Part shown: in pieces, positions 4,921 to 37,231 of the stretch | How the letters are laid out: every line of letters begins with the position of its first letter | Position numbering within the stretch: position 1 is the stretch's first letter | Virus record (IMG/VR): IMGVR_UViG_3300032240_001164 | Coordinates: 1-38,279 of that record | Strand: one strand, 5' to 3' | DNA length: 38,279 nt | DNA from: a virus | Program-made: the position numbers and the translations under genes | Notes under the pieces: generated by a model | What the model was told of the DNA's origin: nothing | What the model saw: only the letters and a program-made list of their open reading frames with translations | Databases searched by the model: none

Positions 4921-5838
4921 ATGATTAAAGGAACTTATATATTTTATGAAGATGGTAAGGAAATTTTTAGACAATCTAATATTATTACCAAATTTGGAAA
5001 ACGATTTTTTACAAATGTAATCGCTGGAAATGTACCTGCTGATACAAAAGATATTGCGGTTGGAATTACCTCTACGTCTGCAACAATAAATGATACAAGA
5101 CTAGGGTTTGAATTTTATAGAATTCCAGTTTCCCTTTCGAGTATCGATATTCAAACTAGTAATGGAACTAGTACATATTCTGTTGTATATAAAGCAACGC
5201 TTCCTCAGACTGCAGCTGGCATTGTTTCAGAAGTTGGACTATATCCATCTCAAAGAATTTCTGCAAATAATTATGATAGCAAATTTATTACAGATTTTGA
5301 AAAACAATTAGATTGGTCACCTTTACCAAATTCTATTTCTGGAAATCAAAAAATTGGAAATGTATTACTATCAATGTCTTCAGGAAGCGGGACAGCTCAA
5401 GAATATATTTCATATATGGGATTAGATATTTCAGGGTATAGCATTAATGATACTTTAAAGTTGGCTTATTATAAAAATGATACAAATCTTTCATCTATTA
5501 CCTTAAAGTTTTATAATGGAGATAGCAATTATTATTCATTACCTATAACACCAGATTCTGGAACTGGATATAAAATAACAACAGATATCCCACTGAATTC
5601 ATTGTTTGGTTCTTCAACTGGATCTCCAGATAAATCTCAAATTAACAAAATTGGAATTGTCGTTACACCAACATCTGGTAATACAACAGTGGTAGGATTT
5701 GACGGATTAAGAATTAATGACGAGGACACCTTTGACCCAGCATTTGGATTAATTAGTAGATCTGTATTATCTACACCACTTACAAAGTTGGCTGGAAGAC
5801 AAGTAGACATAGAATATCGTTTAGATTTAGGATTCTAA
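4921..5838 (+). CDS. Tail protein, possible receptor-binding or baseplate component
   Basis: I place the start at ATG 4921, one base after the preceding stop. The frame could begin at TTG 4867, but that would overlap the upstream gene by 53 bases with no reason to. The product has 305 residues and is strand-rich. An N-terminal GTYIFYEDGKEIFRQSN is followed by KFGKRFFTNVIAG and a motif-poor beta domain. The second half (about residues 140-265) resembles a carbohydrate-binding jelly roll (YISYMGLDISGYSINDTLKL). I do not recognise a named family. The position between hub and fibre genes suggests a tail-tip or baseplate protein. Confidence 0.55.
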   Translation: MIKGTYIFYEDGKEIFRQSNIITKFGKRFFTNVIAGNVPADTKDIAVGITSTSATINDTRLGFEFYRIPVSLSSIDIQTSNGTSTYSVVYKATLPQTAAGIVSEVGLYPSQRISANNYDSKFITDFEKQLDWSPLPNSISGNQKIGNVLLSMSSGSGTAQEYISYMGLDISGYSINDTLKLAYYKNDTNLSSITLKFYNGDSNYYSLPITPDSGTGYKITTDIPLNSLFGSSTGSPDKSQINKIGIVVTPTSGNTTVVGFDGLRINDEDTFDPAFGLISRSVLSTPLTKLAGRQVDIEYRLDLGF

Positions 5839-22251: not shown

Positions 22252-22785
22252 ATGAAAACGGTAGGAGATAAATTAGGTCAATTTGTTGTTATTGGCGTCA
22301 AGCCAGGCAAATTGGATGTAGAAGATGCGTTTGTGCCACTAAGCAATGAATCGTTTCCAGGACAATGGAAGGTAATTGTTTTTTATCCAAAAGACTTTAC
22401 TTTCGTATGCCCTACAGAAATTGTAGGATACGATGCATTAGTTAATGAATTTTCTGCAAGAAATGCAGTTCTTATGACTGGTTCCGTGGATAACGAATTT
22501 TGTAAAATTGCATGGAGAAATGCTGATCCTCAATTAGCTAAAACAAATTCGTGGTCATTTGCAGATACAGCACACACATTAGCAAATGATTTGGGAATTC
22601 ATGCTCCGATGGGAGTAACATATCGTGCAACATTTATTGTTGATCCAGAAAATGTAATTCAGCATGTTACAGTTAATGGTTTAGATACTGGCAGAAATCC
22701 AGAAGAAACTCTAAGAATTTTAGATGCTATCCAAACTGGAGAAAAAACTGCATGCAGTAGACAAATCGGAGGAGCAACACTTTAA
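22252..22785 (+). CDS. ahpC: AhpC-type 2-Cys peroxiredoxin
   Basis: This 177-residue peroxiredoxin reduces hydrogen and alkyl peroxides. The peroxidatic motif is FYPKDFTFVCPTEI with Cys53. The Arg motif is in GVTYRATFIVDPENVIQHV, and the resolving region near the end has Cys168 (EKTACSRQIGG). It is close to actinobacterial AhpC, including FTFVCPTEI and the phrase GRNPEETLRILDA. M. tuberculosis AhpC has a C-terminal Cys-x-Cys pair, whereas here only one Cys remains. Another Cys (84) lies after the active site. There is no reductase partner in the window, so it would need host AhpD, thioredoxin or mycoredoxin. It is an unusual passenger between MazG and RecA and probably came from the host lineage. 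Confidence 0.92.
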   Translation: MKTVGDKLGQFVVIGVKPGKLDVEDAFVPLSNESFPGQWKVIVFYPKDFTFVCPTEIVGYDALVNEFSARNAVLMTGSVDNEFCKIAWRNADPQLAKTNSWSFADTAHTLANDLGIHAPMGVTYRATFIVDPENVIQHVTVNGLDTGRNPEETLRILDAIQTGEKTACSRQIGGATL

Positions 22786-23979: not shown

Positions 23980-24287
23980 TGTCCGAACGTGCTGAAATCA
24001 AAAGAGATGGAGCCAAAGGACAAAAAAATTCTGGTCGTGGCGATTACCAAAAGGGCGATGCTACCTGGCATAATTTTGTGGTGGATTATAAAGAGTATGC
24101 TAAATCAATCTCGATTTCAACAGATATATGGGCGAAAATCTGTACAGATACTTTTAAAGTTAGTCGGGATAAAAGCCCAGTACTCAAACTCGTCCTTGGT
24201 GGAGAAGGTGCTAAAACAAGACTTGCAGTAATTGAATGGGCTATGCTGGAACAATTAATAGAATGTTGGGAAAAACATAATGAATAA
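23979..24287 (+). CDS. Putative Hjc-like Holliday junction/PD-(D/E)xK nuclease
   Basis: This 102-residue protein has a basic, Gly-rich start (KRDGAKGQKNSGRGDYQKGD) followed by a strand with FVVDYKEYAKS. The spacing of GD and D-x-K is that of the PD-(D/E)xK fold used by archaeal Hjc and phage resolvases, in which the SGRG-type loop contacts DNA. The second half is helical (KTRLAVIEWAMLEQLIECW). The function is inferred from this motif and from its place between recA and other recombination genes. A different nucleic-acid role is possible. Confidence 0.5.
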   Translation: MSERAEIKRDGAKGQKNSGRGDYQKGDATWHNFVVDYKEYAKSISISTDIWAKICTDTFKVSRDKSPVLKLVLGGEGAKTRLAVIEWAMLEQLIECWEKHNE

Positions 24288-25086
24288 AGAAATTTATCCT
24301 AAAATTATGGTTTATTCAGATTTATTAAAAGATCCTGACAGATTATATAAAATAATGAAAAAATCTGAACAGGATTCAGATGGAAAATTTTATTTAAGAA
24401 AATGGACAGACTGGTCTATTTTCGGTACATATACTCAACAAAAACATGATCCTAAAGAAGAATTCCAAAGCGGAGATCGATATGATGAAGAAAAATATTT
24501 ATCAGATTCTGTTTATGAGGCATATCAAAAAGCAATTGATCATTACATAGATTATTATGATATTAAACTCCCAGAAACTGCCGAACTTGCCAGTTCTTCT
24601 TTTTCAAAATATGATTATCAATCCGTAGTAGAAGATAATGATATGGCAATGCAATATCACACAGATTTTGTTATTTCAGAAAAAGATATGCCTGGCCAAA
24701 AATTTTTATTAACATGTACTACATATATAAACGATGATTATGAAGGGGGAGCAGTTGAGTTTTATATTAATGGTGAAATTGTAACCTTCAAGCCAAAGGC
24801 TGGGGATATTTTGGTATTCCCATCTGGGGATCCTTATTACCACGGGGTTACTGCAATTTCAAAAGCTCCAAAATTTTTTATTAGAAATTTTATGATGTAT
24901 GAATTTGACGGTACAAAAGAATGGTTAGATAATCAAAAAAGATACGGTGCAATGCGTTGGTTTGAAATGGAAAAAGATAGGTTATTTTTAGAAAATAAAG
25001 GAAACCAAAAATATAGATTTAATGGTAAAGTAGTTTCAGCAGAAGAGTTTGAAACTTTATATGGAGGTAATGATGGGGTCAAATAA
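24280..25086 (+). CDS. 2-oxoglutarate/Fe(II)-dependent oxygenase (prolyl-4-hydroxylase-like)
   Basis: This 268-residue protein has the double-stranded beta-helix signature: QYHTD (H127, D129), LLTCTTYINDDYEGGAVEFY, KPKAGDILVFPS, YYHGV (H188) and a downstream Arg in FFIRNF that would hold 2-oxoglutarate. The N-terminal 120 residues are helical. Such enzymes hydroxylate proteins, nucleic acids or small molecules; the sequence does not tell which. Related oxygenases occur widely in aquatic phages. It overlaps the nuclease gene before it by eight bases, placing it in the recombination operon. A second, shorter member is at 32791. Confidence 0.88.
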   Translation: MNKEIYPKIMVYSDLLKDPDRLYKIMKKSEQDSDGKFYLRKWTDWSIFGTYTQQKHDPKEEFQSGDRYDEEKYLSDSVYEAYQKAIDHYIDYYDIKLPETAELASSSFSKYDYQSVVEDNDMAMQYHTDFVISEKDMPGQKFLLTCTTYINDDYEGGAVEFYINGEIVTFKPKAGDILVFPSGDPYYHGVTAISKAPKFFIRNFMMYEFDGTKEWLDNQKRYGAMRWFEMEKDRLFLENKGNQKYRFNGKVVSAEEFETLYGGNDGVK

Positions 25087-25465: not shown

Positions 25466-25790
25466 AAATACTTTAGAGTTAATTAGTGATATTACTGAAT
25501 TTAATGATTTGCATGATTTTATGCAAGATGAGCATTTAGATAAAACTCTAGCAATTGTGGTAAAATTGTTAATGAATCCAGATGTACCTTCTGCAAAAGC
25601 CCCACATTTAATTATGGAGCTTCAAGCAATGTCGACAAAATTCTCAGTGCTTGCATCAGTTTATTCGACTATTGCAAAAGATAAAGCGGGAACAGAAAAT
25701 AATAATAAAAAGAATATTTATTATTCAGTAAAGGAGTCCATAGACAAACTTGTAGATGCACTAAAGTATGTCGTTAGGTACAATTCATAA
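25452..25790 (+). CDS. Helical protein of unknown function
   Basis: This 112-residue helical protein is acidic in the first third, with a core KTLAIVVKLLMNPDVPSAKA then LIMELQAMSTKFSVLASVYS. It overlaps both neighbours and is directly upstream of the Cas4-like nuclease, whose start overlaps its stop (TAATG). The conserved small-gene-then-nuclease order may mean it is a partner, but no family is recognised. Confidence 0.6.
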   Translation: MTTDKNTLELISDITEFNDLHDFMQDEHLDKTLAIVVKLLMNPDVPSAKAPHLIMELQAMSTKFSVLASVYSTIAKDKAGTENNNKKNIYYSVKESIDKLVDALKYVVRYNS

Positions 25791-26566
25791 TGGGTAGAGA
25801 TATAGTTAGCAATTTAAAATTTAAAAAAAATACTGGTGTTTTTCAACCAGAAGAATTTGCAAGAATGCTCGATGACGCATACTTAAACACAAAAAGAGGC
25901 GATCAATCTTTAACTAAAACATCTTTTAGTCCAAGTAGTATTGGGTACGGACATGGTAATTGCCCTAGATATTGGTATATGGCTTTTAGTGGTGCAATGT
26001 TTATTGACGATAATGATTCTATCGCAGTAGCCAATATGGCACAGGGTACGCAGGCACACGAAAGACTTCAGGGTCTTATTAAAACTATGCCAAACTTCGT
26101 AGCAGAAGAACAAGAAATTACAAATGAATATCCTCCTATTCGTGGTTTTATAGATCTAATACTGGATTGGAATGGCGAAAAGGTTATCGGAGAAATCAAA
26201 ACTGCAAAGCAGGAAGTTTGGGATACACGTCAAGCAGAAATGAAATCTTCTGCTAATCATATGCTACAACTTCTTACTTATATGAAACTTACTGATGCTA
26301 AAGAAGGATTCTTTTTGTATGAAAATAAAAATACACAAGAGGTTCTTATTATTCCAGTTCAAATGAATGAGCGAAATAAAAAGATCATTGAAGATACATT
26401 TATTTGGCTCAGAGAAGTTTGGGATAATTTTAAAGATGGCGACCTGCCATTAAGAGCTTTTACTAAATCTACTTCGTCATGCAAGTATTGTCCTTTAAAA
26501 AAAGAATGTTGGGCTGGATCAACTGGTACTGTACAAATTGATGCTTTCGAGGTGCCAAAGATATGA
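25790..26566 (+). CDS. Cas4/RecB-like PD-(D/E)xK exonuclease with Fe-S cluster
   Basis: This 258-residue protein holds Cys58 (GNCPRYW), His90 (QAHE), Asp122 (GFIDLIL), Glu135 and Lys137 (GEIKTAK), then Cys231-x2-Cys234-x5-Cys240 (SCKYCPLKKECW). One Cys far upstream plus three at the C-terminus is the 4Fe-4S pattern of the Cas4/AddB/RecB-type nucleases. These are 5'-3' or ssDNA exonucleases involved in end processing. No CRISPR array or other cas gene is nearby, so a replication or recombination role beside RecA and RuvC is more likely than CRISPR adaptation. Phage Cas4-like proteins are well known. Confidence 0.85.
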   Translation: MGRDIVSNLKFKKNTGVFQPEEFARMLDDAYLNTKRGDQSLTKTSFSPSSIGYGHGNCPRYWYMAFSGAMFIDDNDSIAVANMAQGTQAHERLQGLIKTMPNFVAEEQEITNEYPPIRGFIDLILDWNGEKVIGEIKTAKQEVWDTRQAEMKSSANHMLQLLTYMKLTDAKEGFFLYENKNTQEVLIIPVQMNERNKKIIEDTFIWLREVWDNFKDGDLPLRAFTKSTSSCKYCPLKKECWAGSTGTVQIDAFEVPKI

Positions 26567-26841
26567 TTTGCTTCAATAAGGAATGTGCTAAGGATTTTAC
26601 TCCTAAAACACATAACCAAAAATATTGTTGCGATGAATGTTGCAGGTTGGCAACAAACAGAAGAATCATGGAAAAATATTATGAAAAAAAAGCAATAAAA
26701 AATGGTGCCTTAAGAAAATGCAAAAAGTGTACATCAGAATTAAGTAGATACAATAACACTGAAGTTTGTTCAACATGTGAAAAAAATTTTTATATTGAGA
26801 GCAGAAAATTGATTTGGGGTATTATCAATGACATTGGCTAA
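26563..26841 (+). CDS. Double zinc-finger protein
   Basis: This 92-residue protein has two sites. The first is C3-x4-C8-x13-C22-x3-C26 (with NQKYCCDECCRLATNRR), a pattern I know from actinophage and plasmid zinc proteins. The second is C53-x2-C56-x12-C69-x2-C72 (KCKKC, CSTC). The linker is a basic helix (RRIMEKYYEKKAIKNGALRK). It overlaps both the Cas4-like and RuvC-like genes and probably binds nucleic acid. Function is otherwise unknown. Confidence 0.75.
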   Translation: MICFNKECAKDFTPKTHNQKYCCDECCRLATNRRIMEKYYEKKAIKNGALRKCKKCTSELSRYNNTEVCSTCEKNFYIESRKLIWGIINDIG

Positions 26842-27975: not shown

Positions 27976-28118
27976 AACTTTATCAAAGTAAAGACTGGCT
28001 ATATAGACGCTATGTAGTTCAAAAGAAAAATGTAACTGAAATTGCAAAAGAGTGCGAAGTTTCAGCTATGACTATACAAAGATACCTAGATCAGTTTGGA
28101 TTAATTAAAAAAAGATGA
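27972..28118 (+). CDS. Tiny helix-turn-helix protein
   Basis: This 48-residue frame has stop-start overlaps at both ends (ATGA with the gene before; ATGA with the next). Its second half is a clean helix-turn-helix: VTEIAKECEVSAMTIQRYL, ending FGLIKKR. This resembles the resolvase/transposase-type recognition fold. It has no catalytic part, so it is more likely a DNA-binding regulator than a recombinase remnant. Confidence 0.7.
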   Translation: MKLYQSKDWLYRRYVVQKKNVTEIAKECEVSAMTIQRYLDQFGLIKKR

Positions 28119-28861
28119 ATTTTGACATAACAAAAATGTGCTATAGAATATTCCATATCCCAGGATATGGGGACTACGGTAATGTAAGATCTAAATTGTA
28201 CAATGATTTAGATTCATATTTAGAACATAAGATATCTAAATTAAATACCGAAACTATTTTAATTAGCAGTAGAGAGCAATATGACGAGTTTAATAATAAA
28301 TATAATTTATTAAACCCTAAAATTGATTTTAAATGGGGAGAACTTGGCATTTGGGCAAGCAATCTCTTAGCTATCCAAAACTTTTTAAAATCTGATTATG
28401 AATATGTTATGCTTATGGAAGATGATATTTATGTTGAAGATAAAGATAAATTCATTAAGTTGTTATCTGAATACATGAATCAATTACCAGAAGATTGGCA
28501 AGCATTTAGTTATTTTGTAGACCCTAATCAGTTTGATAGATTTGGGACTATTACAACAGTAGGTGAAATGACTGGATTTTCCTATACCAGAAAGTTACCA
28601 GATGTTGAAAAGGGCCCAGTTGTAAAAGCATACCAGGATTGGTCGATGCTCTGTTATATATTAAATAGAAATTCTGCTCAAAGTATTTTAGACGATGTTA
28701 AAAAATTAGGACTTATATTCCCTATAGATTGGCATTTGTTTAGGCAGCCAGAAAAATTTACAACATATACTTTAAGTCCATATGCAGAAAAAGGATGTGA
28801 CAGATATGACGTTATATCCACTTTTCAATTAAGAGAGGAACCAATTAAAATAAATGACTAA
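28115..28861 (+). CDS. GT25-like glycosyltransferase
   Basis: This 248-residue protein has the pattern of glycosyltransferase family 25 (LOS/LPS-type galactosyl or glucosyl transferases): KWGELGIWASNLLAI, then YEYVMLMEDDIYVE (the D-x-D-like metal and donor site), then DWSMLCYILNRNSAQSIL and PIDWHLF. In a phage it may modify virion proteins, host surface glycans or DNA. It lies between an FkbM-like and a class I methyltransferase, with overlaps on both sides. I cannot say what is the acceptor. Confidence 0.75.
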   Translation: MNFDITKMCYRIFHIPGYGDYGNVRSKLYNDLDSYLEHKISKLNTETILISSREQYDEFNNKYNLLNPKIDFKWGELGIWASNLLAIQNFLKSDYEYVMLMEDDIYVEDKDKFIKLLSEYMNQLPEDWQAFSYFVDPNQFDRFGTITTVGEMTGFSYTRKLPDVEKGPVVKAYQDWSMLCYILNRNSAQSILDDVKKLGLIFPIDWHLFRQPEKFTTYTLSPYAEKGCDRYDVISTFQLREEPIKIND

Positions 28862-29453
28862 TAGCTATAGTCGATCAACAAGTATTCCAAATTGGTTTGC
28901 TGGAACAGAATCTGAAAGAAATTTTGAAAGATATACGGAACAGTTTATTGGTAAAGAAAATTTAAACTTTTTAGAAATAGGATCTTTCTGTGGAGATAGT
29001 TCTGTATGGATGTTAAAAAATGTTTTAACTGGGTATAATTCAAAACTTACTTGTGTAGACCCTTGGCTAGTAGATGTAGAGAATTTGTCATTTGATTGGA
29101 AAGAAATTGAAAATGAATTTGATAAACAAACTGTCATTTATTCAGATAAAGTTTTAAAATATCAAAATTTTAGTAAAGACTGGTTAATGAATAATAGATC
29201 TATTTTATATGATTTTATTTATATAGATGGAGATCATACTGGGAAAGCCGTCATAGAGGATTGCGTATTATCTTGGGATTTGCTAAAATTAAATGGAGTC
29301 ATGGCTTTTGATGATTACGAATGGAATCATCCAGAGCCAAATGAAACAAGTCCTAAAATAGCTGTAGATTTATTTTTACAGACACATAAAAATGAAATTG
29401 AATTGATCCACAAAGGGTGGCAAGTCTGGGTAAGGAAAATAAAGGCGGCTTAA
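28854..29453 (+). CDS. Class I SAM-dependent methyltransferase
   Basis: This 199-residue protein has a SAM-binding motif I (NFLEIGSFCGDSSVWML), motif II (LTCVDPWLVD) and the acidic post-motif (YDFIYIDGDHTGKAVIEDCV), then NGVMAFDDYEW. This is the pattern of the small-molecule/sugar O-methyltransferase group (Methyltransf_24-like). It is the third enzyme of the modification cluster and overlaps the glycosyltransferase gene. The acceptor is not deducible. Confidence 0.8.
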   Translation: MTNSYSRSTSIPNWFAGTESERNFERYTEQFIGKENLNFLEIGSFCGDSSVWMLKNVLTGYNSKLTCVDPWLVDVENLSFDWKEIENEFDKQTVIYSDKVLKYQNFSKDWLMNNRSILYDFIYIDGDHTGKAVIEDCVLSWDLLKLNGVMAFDDYEWNHPEPNETSPKIAVDLFLQTHKNEIELIHKGWQVWVRKIKAA

Positions 29454-32485: not shown

Positions 32486-32794
32486 ATGGAAGAGGATTTT
32501 AAATCAGAAATGCTAGAATATTATATGTCTATAGGTGCAATAAGTATTGAGGCTATAGATGAAAATGGAGAAATTTTGTATGAAATTACTGAGCATGCAA
32601 AAGATGTTGCCCCAGAATTATGGGCAGCCCATACAGAATATGTGGATGAAACATTATTAGATCTATATAGCAAAGAACTTATTGAAATTGAATATAATGA
32701 AAATCTAGAAGCAATAATTCATTTATCTGAAGAGGGTTATAAAATTGCTTTGGAAAAAGGAGTAATCCCACCAGAAGGATATCAGGGGATATGA
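32486..32794 (+). CDS. Acidic protein of unknown function
   Basis: This 102-residue strongly acidic protein (EEDFKSEMLEYYMSIGAISI, then EAIIHLSEEGYKIAL) has AGGAGAT upstream of ATG, right after the tRNA. The C-terminal LSEEGYKIALEKG resembles a winged-helix wing or small helical domain, but no family is recognised. It overlaps the oxygenase gene that follows. Confidence 0.6.
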   Translation: MEEDFKSEMLEYYMSIGAISIEAIDENGEILYEITEHAKDVAPELWAAHTEYVDETLLDLYSKELIEIEYNENLEAIIHLSEEGYKIALEKGVIPPEGYQGI

Positions 32795-33354
32795 AAGAAT
32801 TATATTCAGGAATTTTTATTATTGAAAATTTTCTTACAGAAGAAGAACAAAAATATCATTTAGATTTAATAAACTCCTGTTCTGCAGAAGATTGGACAGG
32901 ACTTGCGATTAAAGAAATTGAGGATTCATATCAGGGTGATTCAGAAAAAATCAAATACGAAGTAGACAACAGGAACACATATTGGGACGATAAAGTAATT
33001 ATTGTGCCAAATGAACAACTAAATAATATTATAGAAAATCGTATTTCAAAAATTTTTAATGATGAATTTAAGATAACTAATGTAGGAAGAATCCAAAGGC
33101 AATATCCTGGATCTGAATTGCAAGTTCATTATGACCAAGGCAGTAACCCAACTTTACAAAAAGCTGTGTTAATATACTTAAATGATGATTATAATGGAGG
33201 AGAATTATTTTTCCCAGATCACAATTTTTCAATTAAGCCACCTGCAAGGAGTTTAATTACTTTCCCTGGCACAAAAGATTATTTGCATGGAGTTAAAATT
33301 TTATTAGATGGTCCAGACCGATTTGTTTTGCCATATTTTGGATTTACAAAATGA
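32791..33354 (+). CDS. Second 2-oxoglutarate/Fe(II)-dependent oxygenase
   Basis: This 187-residue protein has HxD at H113/D115 (VHYDQG), the strand AVLIYLNDDYNGGELFF, the segment PPARSLITFPG, the distal His166 (LHGV) and Arg177 for 2-oxoglutarate. It is shorter than the 24280 member and lacks its long N-terminal helices, so they are paralogues of different subtype. The substrate is unknown. It is coupled by overlap to the acidic protein before it and to the homoserine-dehydrogenase-like gene after it, which may mark a shared small-molecule or amino-acid pathway. Confidence 0.88.
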   Translation: MKELYSGIFIIENFLTEEEQKYHLDLINSCSAEDWTGLAIKEIEDSYQGDSEKIKYEVDNRNTYWDDKVIIVPNEQLNNIIENRISKIFNDEFKITNVGRIQRQYPGSELQVHYDQGSNPTLQKAVLIYLNDDYNGGELFFPDHNFSIKPPARSLITFPGTKDYLHGVKILLDGPDRFVLPYFGFTK

Positions 33355-33833
33355 CTTTAAATGTTTCTATATTTGGAGTTGGTCAAGTTGGTGGGCCGCT
33401 TGTAGATTTAATTAACCAAGACAATCGTCTTAAATTAGTAGGAGTTTCACGAAGCGACAATCAAACGGTTTTAAGTAATGAAAAACCAGATATTGTTATA
33501 GAAGCAATAGGCCCCGCAGATTATGCTAAACTGCTGTTGCTTCAAGCAATGAGAAACGGTCATGATGTTATTAGTTGTAATAAAGAAGCAATTAGACTTT
33601 ATAGCGATGAATTGTTTAAATGTGCAGAAGAAAATAATGTAACTATTTATCTTACTTCAATAGTTGCTGGATTCAAAAACAATGAGTTTCCTACACCATT
33701 AACACATAAAAACTTTAATGAATATTTAAATTTAAATCCATTTGGATTTCGTGGTGCAGGCGGAAAAGAAACAGCACAGGAAATGTACAACGACATATTA
33801 AGATCTATTGACAATCCTGTCGATAATATATAA
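33351..33833 (+). CDS. Homoserine-dehydrogenase-like protein lacking the catalytic domain
   Basis: This 160-residue protein has the Rossmann start (IFGVGQVGGPLVDLI, residues 7-21), then DIVIEAIG, NGHDVISCNKEAI (70-81), and YLTSIVAG (100-107) like the NAD-domain end of homoserine dehydrogenase. It then jumps to GFRGAGGKETAQEMYNDIL (132-150), which matches the extreme C-terminus of the enzyme (GxGAGGxPTAxxxxxDI). About 170-200 residues of catalytic and dimer domain are missing. As I recall, that last helix folds back onto the NAD domain, so the protein could be a neat stand-alone NAD(P)-binding module. No frameshift is evident. It might be a regulator or decoy, or an enzyme with another partner. 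Confidence 0.75.
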   Translation: MTLNVSIFGVGQVGGPLVDLINQDNRLKLVGVSRSDNQTVLSNEKPDIVIEAIGPADYAKLLLLQAMRNGHDVISCNKEAIRLYSDELFKCAEENNVTIYLTSIVAGFKNNEFPTPLTHKNFNEYLNLNPFGFRGAGGKETAQEMYNDILRSIDNPVDNI

Positions 33834-33844: not shown

Positions 33845-33917
33845 GCCTTCGTAGCTCAGGGGATAGAGCGAGACTCTTCTAAGGTCTGCGTCGCAGGTTC
33901 GATTCCTGCCGAGGGCA
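33845..33917 (+). tRNA. tRNA-Arg (TCT)
   Basis: A 73-base cloverleaf: acceptor GCCTTCG/CGAGGGC, anticodon loop CTTCTAA with anticodon TCT reading AGA, T arm GCAGG/CCTGC, discriminator A, no encoded CCA. AGA is a frequent Arg codon in the phage genes here. It is the first of three tRNAs separated by four bases each. Confidence 0.95.
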
Positions 33918-33921
33918 CGAT

Positions 33922-33994
33922 GCCCCTCTAGCCCAGCGGTAGAGGCAGTGGACTTAAAATCCATCCAGCATTGGTTCGAATCCAGTGAGGGGCA
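33922..33994 (+). tRNA. tRNA with TAA anticodon (Leu) in a class I body
   Basis: A 73-base cloverleaf: acceptor GCCCCTC/GAGGGGC, three-base-pair D stem GCC/GGC, anticodon stem GTGGA/TCCAT with loop CTTAAAA (anticodon TAA reading TTA), T arm ATTGG/CCAGT, discriminator A. The variable region is five bases (CCAGC), whereas bacterial tRNA-Leu normally has a long class II variable arm. The Leu identity therefore rests on the anticodon and A73. TTA is abundant in the phage genes. Confidence 0.9.
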
Positions 33995-33998
33995 CAAG

Positions 33999-34071
33999 GC
34001 TTCTATAGCTCAGTTGGTAGAGCAGCAGACTTTTAATCTGCGGGTCGTTGGTTCGAATCCAACTGGAGGCA
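33999..34071 (+). tRNA. tRNA-Lys (TTT)
   Basis: A 73-base cloverleaf: acceptor GCTTCTA/TGGAGGC (with wobble pairs), D arm GCTC/GAGC, anticodon stem GCAGA/TCTGC with loop CTTTTAA (anticodon TTT, reads AAA/AAG), T arm TTGG/CCAA within a standard T loop, discriminator A, no CCA. It is the last of the tandem tRNAs. Confidence 0.95.
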
Positions 34072-34085
34072 CTTTAATTTAACAA

Positions 34086-34100: not shown

Positions 34101-34550
34101 ATGGACGAATTAATTTCAAAATTACAGCAATGGCAAGCTAATTCAGTTGTATTATATAGTACTGCTCATGGATTTCATTGGAATGTAGAAGGTGCTTTAT
34201 TTACTCAGTACCACGCATTCTTTGAACAAATTTATACAGATGTGTATGAAACAATTGATACGATTGCAGAATGGCAAAGAAAATTTAATGCCCCAGCACC
34301 GTTTACTCTCGGAGATTTTACAAGATTAAATACTTATGGAGATATAACTTCCCCATCTACTTCACCATTATTGATGTCACAAATTCTTTTAACAATGACT
34401 GAAAAAATGATTGAAGATGTTAAAGATTTGTTTGACATAGCAACACAGAATAGAGAGCAAGGCCTTGCTAATTTTTGTGCAGATAGACAAGACAAATTAC
34501 AATTCTGGGCTTGGTGGTTACGTTCAAGTCTTAAATCAACAATTAATTAG
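34101..34550 (+). CDS. dps: Dps/ferritin-like DNA-protection protein
   Basis: This 149-residue helical protein has the ferroxidase residues of Dps at exact spacing: H26 and H38 (HGFHWNVEG, QYHAFFEQ) then D53 and E57 (TIDTIAEWQ), the same 12-15-4 gaps as H31, H43, D58 and E62 of Listeria Dps. It would form 12-subunit shells that oxidise iron with peroxide and shield DNA. It has no long basic tail, so DNA binding is not assured. The promoter suggests a leaderless mRNA. Phage copies are uncommon; together with the peroxiredoxin it points to protection against oxidative damage during infection. Confidence 0.92.
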   Translation: MDELISKLQQWQANSVVLYSTAHGFHWNVEGALFTQYHAFFEQIYTDVYETIDTIAEWQRKFNAPAPFTLGDFTRLNTYGDITSPSTSPLLMSQILLTMTEKMIEDVKDLFDIATQNREQGLANFCADRQDKLQFWAWWLRSSLKSTIN

Positions 34551-36475: not shown

Positions 36476-37231
36476 ATGATTATACAGGTTATCGGATTAC
36501 CAGGATCTGGAAAGACCACGTTTGCTAAAAATTTAGCAGATAGAATTAATGGCATACATTTAAATGCCGATGAGGTTCGTGCTGAGCTTAATAAAGATTT
36601 AGGATTTAGCCCTGAAGATAGAATTGAACAATCTAGGCGAATGGGTGCACTATCTAGACTTCTTTCTAAACAGGGATACCATGTTGTTGTAGATTTTATT
36701 AATCCAACACAAAAAACTAGAGAAGCATTCGGAAAGCCAGATAAAGTTGTTTGGATGAATAGAAAACCAGTTAGAGATTTTCCAGATACGACAGCTATGT
36801 GGGAAACGCCATCAAATGTTAATTTAGTATTTGATGATTTAATGGAAACTGAAACAGCAACTAGAGTAACATGCATCGATTTCAATTTACCAGATTGGCG
36901 TAAACCAACTACTTTAATGTTAGGTAGATACCAGCCATGGCATGAAGGACACCATGCTTTATATGAAGAGGCTAAAAAAAGAACAGATCAAGTTATGTTG
37001 GGAGTAAGAAACACTTATTTAACTAGCGAAAAGGATCCCCTAACATTTGAACAGGTGCAGGGATATATTGATCAGGATGATTACATGAAAGATGCAATGA
37101 TTGTTAAAATGCCAAATATTACTAATATAGTTTATGGCAGAGATGTTGGTTATAAAATTGAGCAGGTATCGTTAGGAACAGACATTGAGGCTATTAGTGC
37201 TACTCAAAAACGTAAAGAAATGGGTATCTAA
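36476..37231 (+). CDS. APS-kinase-like and HxGH nucleotidyltransferase fusion
   Basis: This 251-residue protein has two parts. Residues 1-140 resemble adenylylsulfate kinase (CysC): Walker A GLPGSGKTTFA, ADEVRAELNKDLGFSPEDRI (compare CysC DNVRHGLNKDLGFSEEDR) and RRMGALSRLL. Residues about 146-251 are a cytidylyl/NMN-adenylyltransferase-type fold: LGRYQPWHEGHHALYEEA (HxGH) and ISATQKRKEM near the end (the ISxTxxR motif). The order kinase then transferase is the reverse of NadR. The function might be PAPS formation plus nucleotide transfer, or nucleoside salvage to a dinucleotide such as NAD. It follows Hsp20 after a structured leader and precedes a DUF2061 gene. Confidence 0.75.
   Translation: MIIQVIGLPGSGKTTFAKNLADRINGIHLNADEVRAELNKDLGFSPEDRIEQSRRMGALSRLLSKQGYHVVVDFINPTQKTREAFGKPDKVVWMNRKPVRDFPDTTAMWETPSNVNLVFDDLMETETATRVTCIDFNLPDWRKPTTLMLGRYQPWHEGHHALYEEAKKRTDQVMLGVRNTYLTSEKDPLTFEQVQGYIDQDDYMKDAMIVKMPNITNIVYGRDVGYKIEQVSLGTDIEAISATQKRKEMGI

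Follow-up and report, generated by a model that had tools for sequence, protein, structure and literature searches.

How can a reading frame that resembles homoserine dehydrogenase (HDH) at both of its ends encode only 160 residues, and what might such a protein do directly behind a 2OG-Fe(II) oxygenase? We addressed this question in the window, the whole 38,279-base stretch of DNA of an IMG/VR virus record. The terminase encoded in the window is 60-65% identical to those of Streptomyces phages and 82-85% identical to those of a large group of metagenomic contigs, which points to an uncultured relative of the actinobacteriophages, presumably with an actinobacterial host. The ORF at 33351-33833 starts with ATG, ends with TAA and has no internal stop in its 160 codons, in agreement with the initial annotation, which had described an unbroken reading frame. 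We refer to its product as mini-HDH, and the features of the locus are as follows.

32791..33354, + strand: 2OG-Fe(II) oxygenase, prolyl-4-hydroxylase (P4H)-like, with HxD...H...R intact (PF13640, E 1.8e-7; weak P4H-like PDB matches)
33351..33833, + strand: mini-HDH, stand-alone HDH-type nucleotide-binding protein of 160 aa (Pfam NAD_binding_3, NCBIfam HDH models, AlphaFold2, Foldseek)
33375..33392, + strand: GVGQVG dinucleotide-binding loop (GxGxVG), residues 9-14 (alignment of seven members)
33576..33584, + strand: CNK, residues 76-78, the xNK motif (alignment to P. horikoshii HDH)
33672..33740, + strand: linker, residues 108-130, with a conserved NF (N121, F122) (PF00742 absence; alignment)
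33741..33812, + strand: retained HDH C-terminal strand-loop-helix FGFRGAGGKETAQEMYNDILRSID, residues 131-154 (shuffle test, alignment, AlphaFold2 model)
33845..34072, + strand: three tRNA genes (Arg, Leu, Lys), the 3' boundary of the oxygenase/mini-HDH accessory pair (ARAGORN)

Ancestry and architecture of mini-HDH

Residues 1-107 had been assigned to the Rossmann domain of HDH, and the Pfam, PDB and family-profile matches agree on this point. PF03447 (NAD_binding_3) was the sole Pfam domain above cutoff in the window protein (E 6.1e-12) and matched all seven members of our conservation alignment at E<=0.1. The NCBIfam HDH models also matched 7/7 aligned members, and their best E, 1e-16, compares with 2.7e-4 for aspartate dehydrogenase, the next dehydrogenase family; no other family with a native short form came closer than HDH. 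In a PDB sequence search with the single protein, the HDHs 6dzs, 4xb2 and 3mtj gave the best matches (E 5e-8 to 1.4e-7); the family profile matched 3mtj at E 1e-15, and a profile-profile comparison with five full-length HDHs reached E 6e-21 across the first 121 profile columns. Sequence identity to HDH is low, about 25-30%. AlphaFold2, run with a seven-row alignment, returned a confident model of the window protein (pLDDT 91.7, pTM 0.87), and HDHs occupied the first 30 ranks of a Foldseek search with this model, with TM-scores of about 0.5-0.6 by query length. By descent, mini-HDH is the nucleotide-binding domain of HDH; as an enzyme it fails HDH membership because the catalytic domain is absent.

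The C-terminal end had been likened to the GxGAG helix of HDH. Residues 129-154 match the C-terminal GxGAGxxxTA strand-loop-helix of HDH, and the tail NPFGFRGAGGKETAQEMYNDIL (129-150) scored 26.6 against a C-terminal profile of five HDHs, a score that was equalled by 1 of 20,000 tail shuffles; for the tails of other members the figure was 1-82 of 20,000. The shuffle test bears out the likeness, although the profile-profile E value is weak: in unsupervised comparisons of the tails alone with whole HDHs, the best placement was the C-terminal segment, at E 0.06-0.09. A helix at 138-154 is modelled in the tail, with pLDDT >90 up to residue 150. The glycine-rich loop of the tail has drifted in two lineages (FRNGGPKETS in L095/L097 and FRGADGEKTA in L096), and nicotinamide contacts may differ in these lineages.

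The two HDH-like parts are joined by a linker of about 23 residues (108-130) without a counterpart in HDH, which replaces the dimerization/substrate domain and in which N121 and F122 are invariant across the aligned members. PF00742, the catalytic/dimerization domain, was not detected at E<=10 in the window or in seven related contigs, and controls were positive in 14/14 genomes. A split gene, with the catalytic domain elsewhere in the contig, was ruled out by the lack of PF00742 in these eight contigs. The loss of the catalytic part, as initially annotated, holds; the size given for it, 170-200 residues, has to be reduced, the gap being about 150-160 residues on the aligned HDHs, beyond which the C-terminal ACT-bearing extension of ACT-type HDHs is also missing. 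The nucleotide-binding domain of P. horikoshii HDH is discontinuous, with residues 1-139 and 297-315 (PMC4495429), and that of S. tokodaii HDH comprises residues 1-130 and 285-304 (PMC5893615), so that both structures accord with the earlier statement that the two ends fold together in the full enzyme. Since the published HDH domain consists of exactly those two pieces, mini-HDH keeps both parts of the split nucleotide-binding domain and nothing else of the enzyme.

We mapped individual residues to P. horikoshii HDH by sequence alignments (chain number minus 16). The loop at residues 9-14 aligns with Gly9-Gly14, the stretch of P. horikoshii HDH in which backbone N atoms bind the NADP phosphates, and G9, G11, V13 and G14 are invariant in 7/7 aligned members. 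N77 and K78, both likewise invariant (7/7), occupy the positions of Asn115 and Lys116. These two residues hold the nicotinamide ribose in the P. horikoshii structure, Lys116 by its N and through water, and Lys116 also contacts, together with Lys215, the C4 hydroxyl of homoserine. The nicotinamide amide is held there by Gly296 N and Thr300, which correspond in the alignment to G137 (invariant in 6/7) and T141 (7/7). The NADP-specific Arg40 and Lys57 of HDH are without a clear counterpart in mini-HDH; Lys215, the second catalytic lysine, and the carboxylate-binding Asp206 lie within the lost domain. With the GxGxVG loop invariant and a model pLDDT of 92, the Rossmann core is undamaged. The surface that is retained comprises the whole cofactor site and the lysine in contact with the reacting hydroxyl, and what was lost is substrate binding and dimerization.

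Distribution and conservation of the short form

A search for the same deletion in other phages recovered seven records in addition to the window, and all of them carry the short form (159-176 aa), with no full-length copy among the eight records. The L052 and L084 genes are identical, leaving seven distinct sequences in five lineages (the window; L096; L095/L097; L053; L050/L084/L052) with 32-46% identity between lineages. The homologues of L050, L052 and L053 (166-176 aa) were found among 80 terminase-bearing contigs, L084 was found by profile searches, and L095, L096 and L097 were reached via the oxygenase; the member count is a lower bound and the family is probably under-counted. A single-protein search of IMG/VR returned no relatives. 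Neither did family-pattern scans covering 84,980 genomes of bacteria and archaea, in which the patterns were exact short peptides that divergent cellular members could escape. Cultured phages and plasmids yielded only full-length bacterial HDHs or weak noise and no convincing short-form relative, no family in PHROGs and no entry in PADLOC matched mini-HDH, and our literature search found no description of a phage HDH or a truncated HDH.

L050 and L084, the one informative pair, gave a dN of 0.059 and a dS of 0.607 (dN/dS about 0.10), and mini-HDH is therefore under purifying selection in this pair. Selection for the short form, which the initial annotation had suggested, is thus supported by the ratio from this one pair and by the retention of the short form across lineages of 32-46% identity. 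All known members already have the short form as a fixed state, and the deletion event as such is not seen.

The oxygenase partner and its surroundings

All eight mini-HDH genes lie directly 3' of a 2OG-Fe(II) oxygenase gene, with an overlap of 1-23 bp. The overlap of the mini-HDH start with the oxygenase stop is 4 bp in the window (ATGA, 33351-33354) and in L053, L095 and L097, 1 bp in L050/L052/L084, and, provided that the ATG at 5563 is the true start, 23 bp in L096. The iron triad of the oxygenase (H113, D115, H166) and its 2OG-binding R177 are invariant in eight homologues. Mini-HDH without the oxygenase was not found among the eight records, three of which (L095, L096 and L097) were ascertained via the oxygenase and five independently. 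Oxygenase homologues do occur without mini-HDH, as a second copy in L084 and in L101, L044, L057, L071 and L080. The two proteins diverge in a correlated manner (r=0.84 over five lineages, with only the identity, 1 of 120 permutations, as good), which could be explained by shared phage descent alone.

The genes around the pair differ among the records. In L095 a HAD-nucleotidyltransferase and a NodU-type carbamoyltransferase are followed by the oxygenase/mini-HDH pair; in L050/L084 the pair is followed by a carbamoyltransferase, a GT61 protein and a nucleotidyltransferase; in L053 a GT61 protein precedes the pair. The window, L096 and L097 have no glycan genes directly beside it. Adjoining the carbamoyltransferase and mini-HDH genes of L095 and L084 are pairs of related proteins of 280-343 aa (L095:1871-3578 and L084:2474-4493) with a GCSxTxG motif, SGNH-hydrolase-like by eye; three of these proteins were tested and gave no Pfam match.

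Several other genes of the window were noted. A second 2OG-Fe(II) oxygenase (24280-25086; PF13640, E 6e-9) has no mini-HDH behind it, and a GT25-type glycosyltransferase is followed by a Methyltransf_24 methyltransferase at 28115-29453; these two genes and the 2OG oxygenases could form a hydroxylation-plus-glycosylation set. An APS-kinase-like P-loop domain at 36476-37231 is fused to a C-terminal nucleotidyltransferase domain (GRYQPWHEGH) that resembles nicotinamide-nucleotide adenylyltransferase (NCBIfam, 1e-6), and the fusion is possibly a phage gene of NAD-related or nucleotide metabolism. An AhpC/TSA-type peroxiredoxin (22252-22785) and a Dps/ferritin-like protein (34101-34550) both have oxidative-stress functions. 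The replication/recombination region contains a Cas4-like PD-(D/E)XK nuclease (25790-26566; PADLOC Cas4, E 1e-16), near which lies a RuvC-like gene at 26828.

Proposed role and relation to known systems

We propose, with a probability of about 50%, that mini-HDH is a stand-alone, HDH-derived, NAD(P)-binding mini-dehydrogenase that works with the 2OG oxygenase, probably oxidising a hydroxylated product in a tailoring reaction. It derives from an HDH that lost its internal dimerization/substrate domain, together with any C-terminal ACT region, and kept both nucleotide-binding segments. Mini-HDH would be translated in tandem with the upstream oxygenase and the two proteins would work together, the oxygenase hydroxylating a substrate and mini-HDH oxidising that hydroxyl (or reducing a carbonyl) with NAD(P), a step for which HDH chemistry on homoserine/aspartate semialdehyde is the model. 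The missing substrate pocket would be supplied by the oxygenase partner or by a substrate carrier. The setting is likely to be one in which a surface glycan or a small molecule is tailored, because in relatives the pair has genes for glycosyltransferases, nucleotidyltransferases and carbamoyltransferases around it. Oxidation of homoserine itself would not be expected, because the equivalents of Lys215 and Asp206 lie in the lost domain. The parts of this proposal differ in strength. The descent from HDH, the keeping of both segments without the catalytic domain, the conservation of mini-HDH and its regular association with the oxygenase gene are shown. Binding of NAD(P) is very probable, and the odds of catalysis are about even; a lone Rossmann domain leaves an open active site, which counts against the catalytic reading. 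The two proteins may also be physical partners, which co-translation by itself does not prove. That a domain-excised, minimal catalytic NAD(P) module borrows its pocket from the co-translated oxygenase, the pair acting during infection as a two-protein hydroxylase-dehydrogenase in the tailoring of a glycan or small molecule, is a tentative and somewhat doubtful picture.

In the main rival, which we regard as possible without favoring it, mini-HDH would be a sensor of NAD(P)(H) or a regulatory subunit without catalysis; it would bind the cofactor and switch or stabilise the 2OG oxygenase, or a host enzyme, with no redox chemistry of its own. The absence of the substrate domain in all members, the sufficiency of a bare Rossmann domain for binding, the constant oxygenase pairing and the divergence of the two proteins in step are all in keeping with such a subunit. 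The invariance of the hydroxyl-contacting lysine is less so, as this side chain is not clearly needed for binding, yet its backbone contacts the ribose through water. Descent from HDH and carriage by phages as an accessory gene would also suit a decoy, a fragment resembling the nucleotide-binding domain of the host's own HDH that would interfere with the synthesis of threonine and methionine. We consider such host takeover unlikely: mini-HDH has lost the very region through which HDH dimerizes, it shares no more than about 25-30% identity with HDH, and the constant 2OG partner is left unexplained.

The remaining alternatives deny that mini-HDH is a functional derivative of HDH. An unrelated short Rossmann family (aspartate dehydrogenase, TrkA-N or Gfo/Idh/MocA) with a convergent resemblance to HDH could account for the weak scores of aspartate dehydrogenase (2.7e-4), TrkA (4e-5) and others; with the E values of the HDH models lower by many powers of ten (1e-16, 7/7 members), HDH folds ranking first and the tail matching the HDH C-terminus in the right order, we find this quite improbable. 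The large internal deletion relative to HDH might be read as the mark of a pseudogene, left over from a host HDH gene that was captured and is decaying, or of an assembly artefact. The recurrence of one and the same short form across five lineages and eight independent records, the dN/dS of about 0.10, the intact motifs and the confident fold make this reading extremely improbable.

Among known proteins, the best sequence and fold match to mini-HDH is monofunctional bacterial HDH (EC 1.1.1.3; PRK06349; PF03447 + PF00742 + ACT). Both have the N-terminal Rossmann half with GxGxVG and xNK and the C-terminal GxGAGxxxTA strand-loop-helix, whereas mini-HDH is without PF00742 and ACT, has a new 23-residue linker and measures 160 aa compared to about 300-440. 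The archaeal-type HDHs without ACT (P. horikoshii 4xb1/4xb2, S. tokodaii 4ydr) have the C-terminal helix as their last element, and their nucleotide-binding domain corresponds to the whole of mini-HDH; unlike mini-HDH, they still have the two segments of this domain separated by dimerization and catalytic regions. Mini-HDH offers a clean case in which a substrate domain evolved away and two sequence-distant pieces of the cofactor domain were kept, as a domain-swapping engineer would have done, and this confidently modelled protein of 160 residues would allow one to ask whether the nucleotide-binding domain of HDH, taken out of the enzyme, can fold, bind NAD(P) and still carry out chemistry. 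The upstream partner belongs to the phage 2OG-Fe(II) oxygenases (PHROG 61, PF13640), which as a rule are described singly; the type seen here is paired with a dinucleotide-binding protein, and the constant pairing provides a handle on the role of this common, unexplained class. The constant oxygenase pairing and the shrunken HDH suggest a two-protein oxidation module made by excising the substrate half of a housekeeping enzyme.
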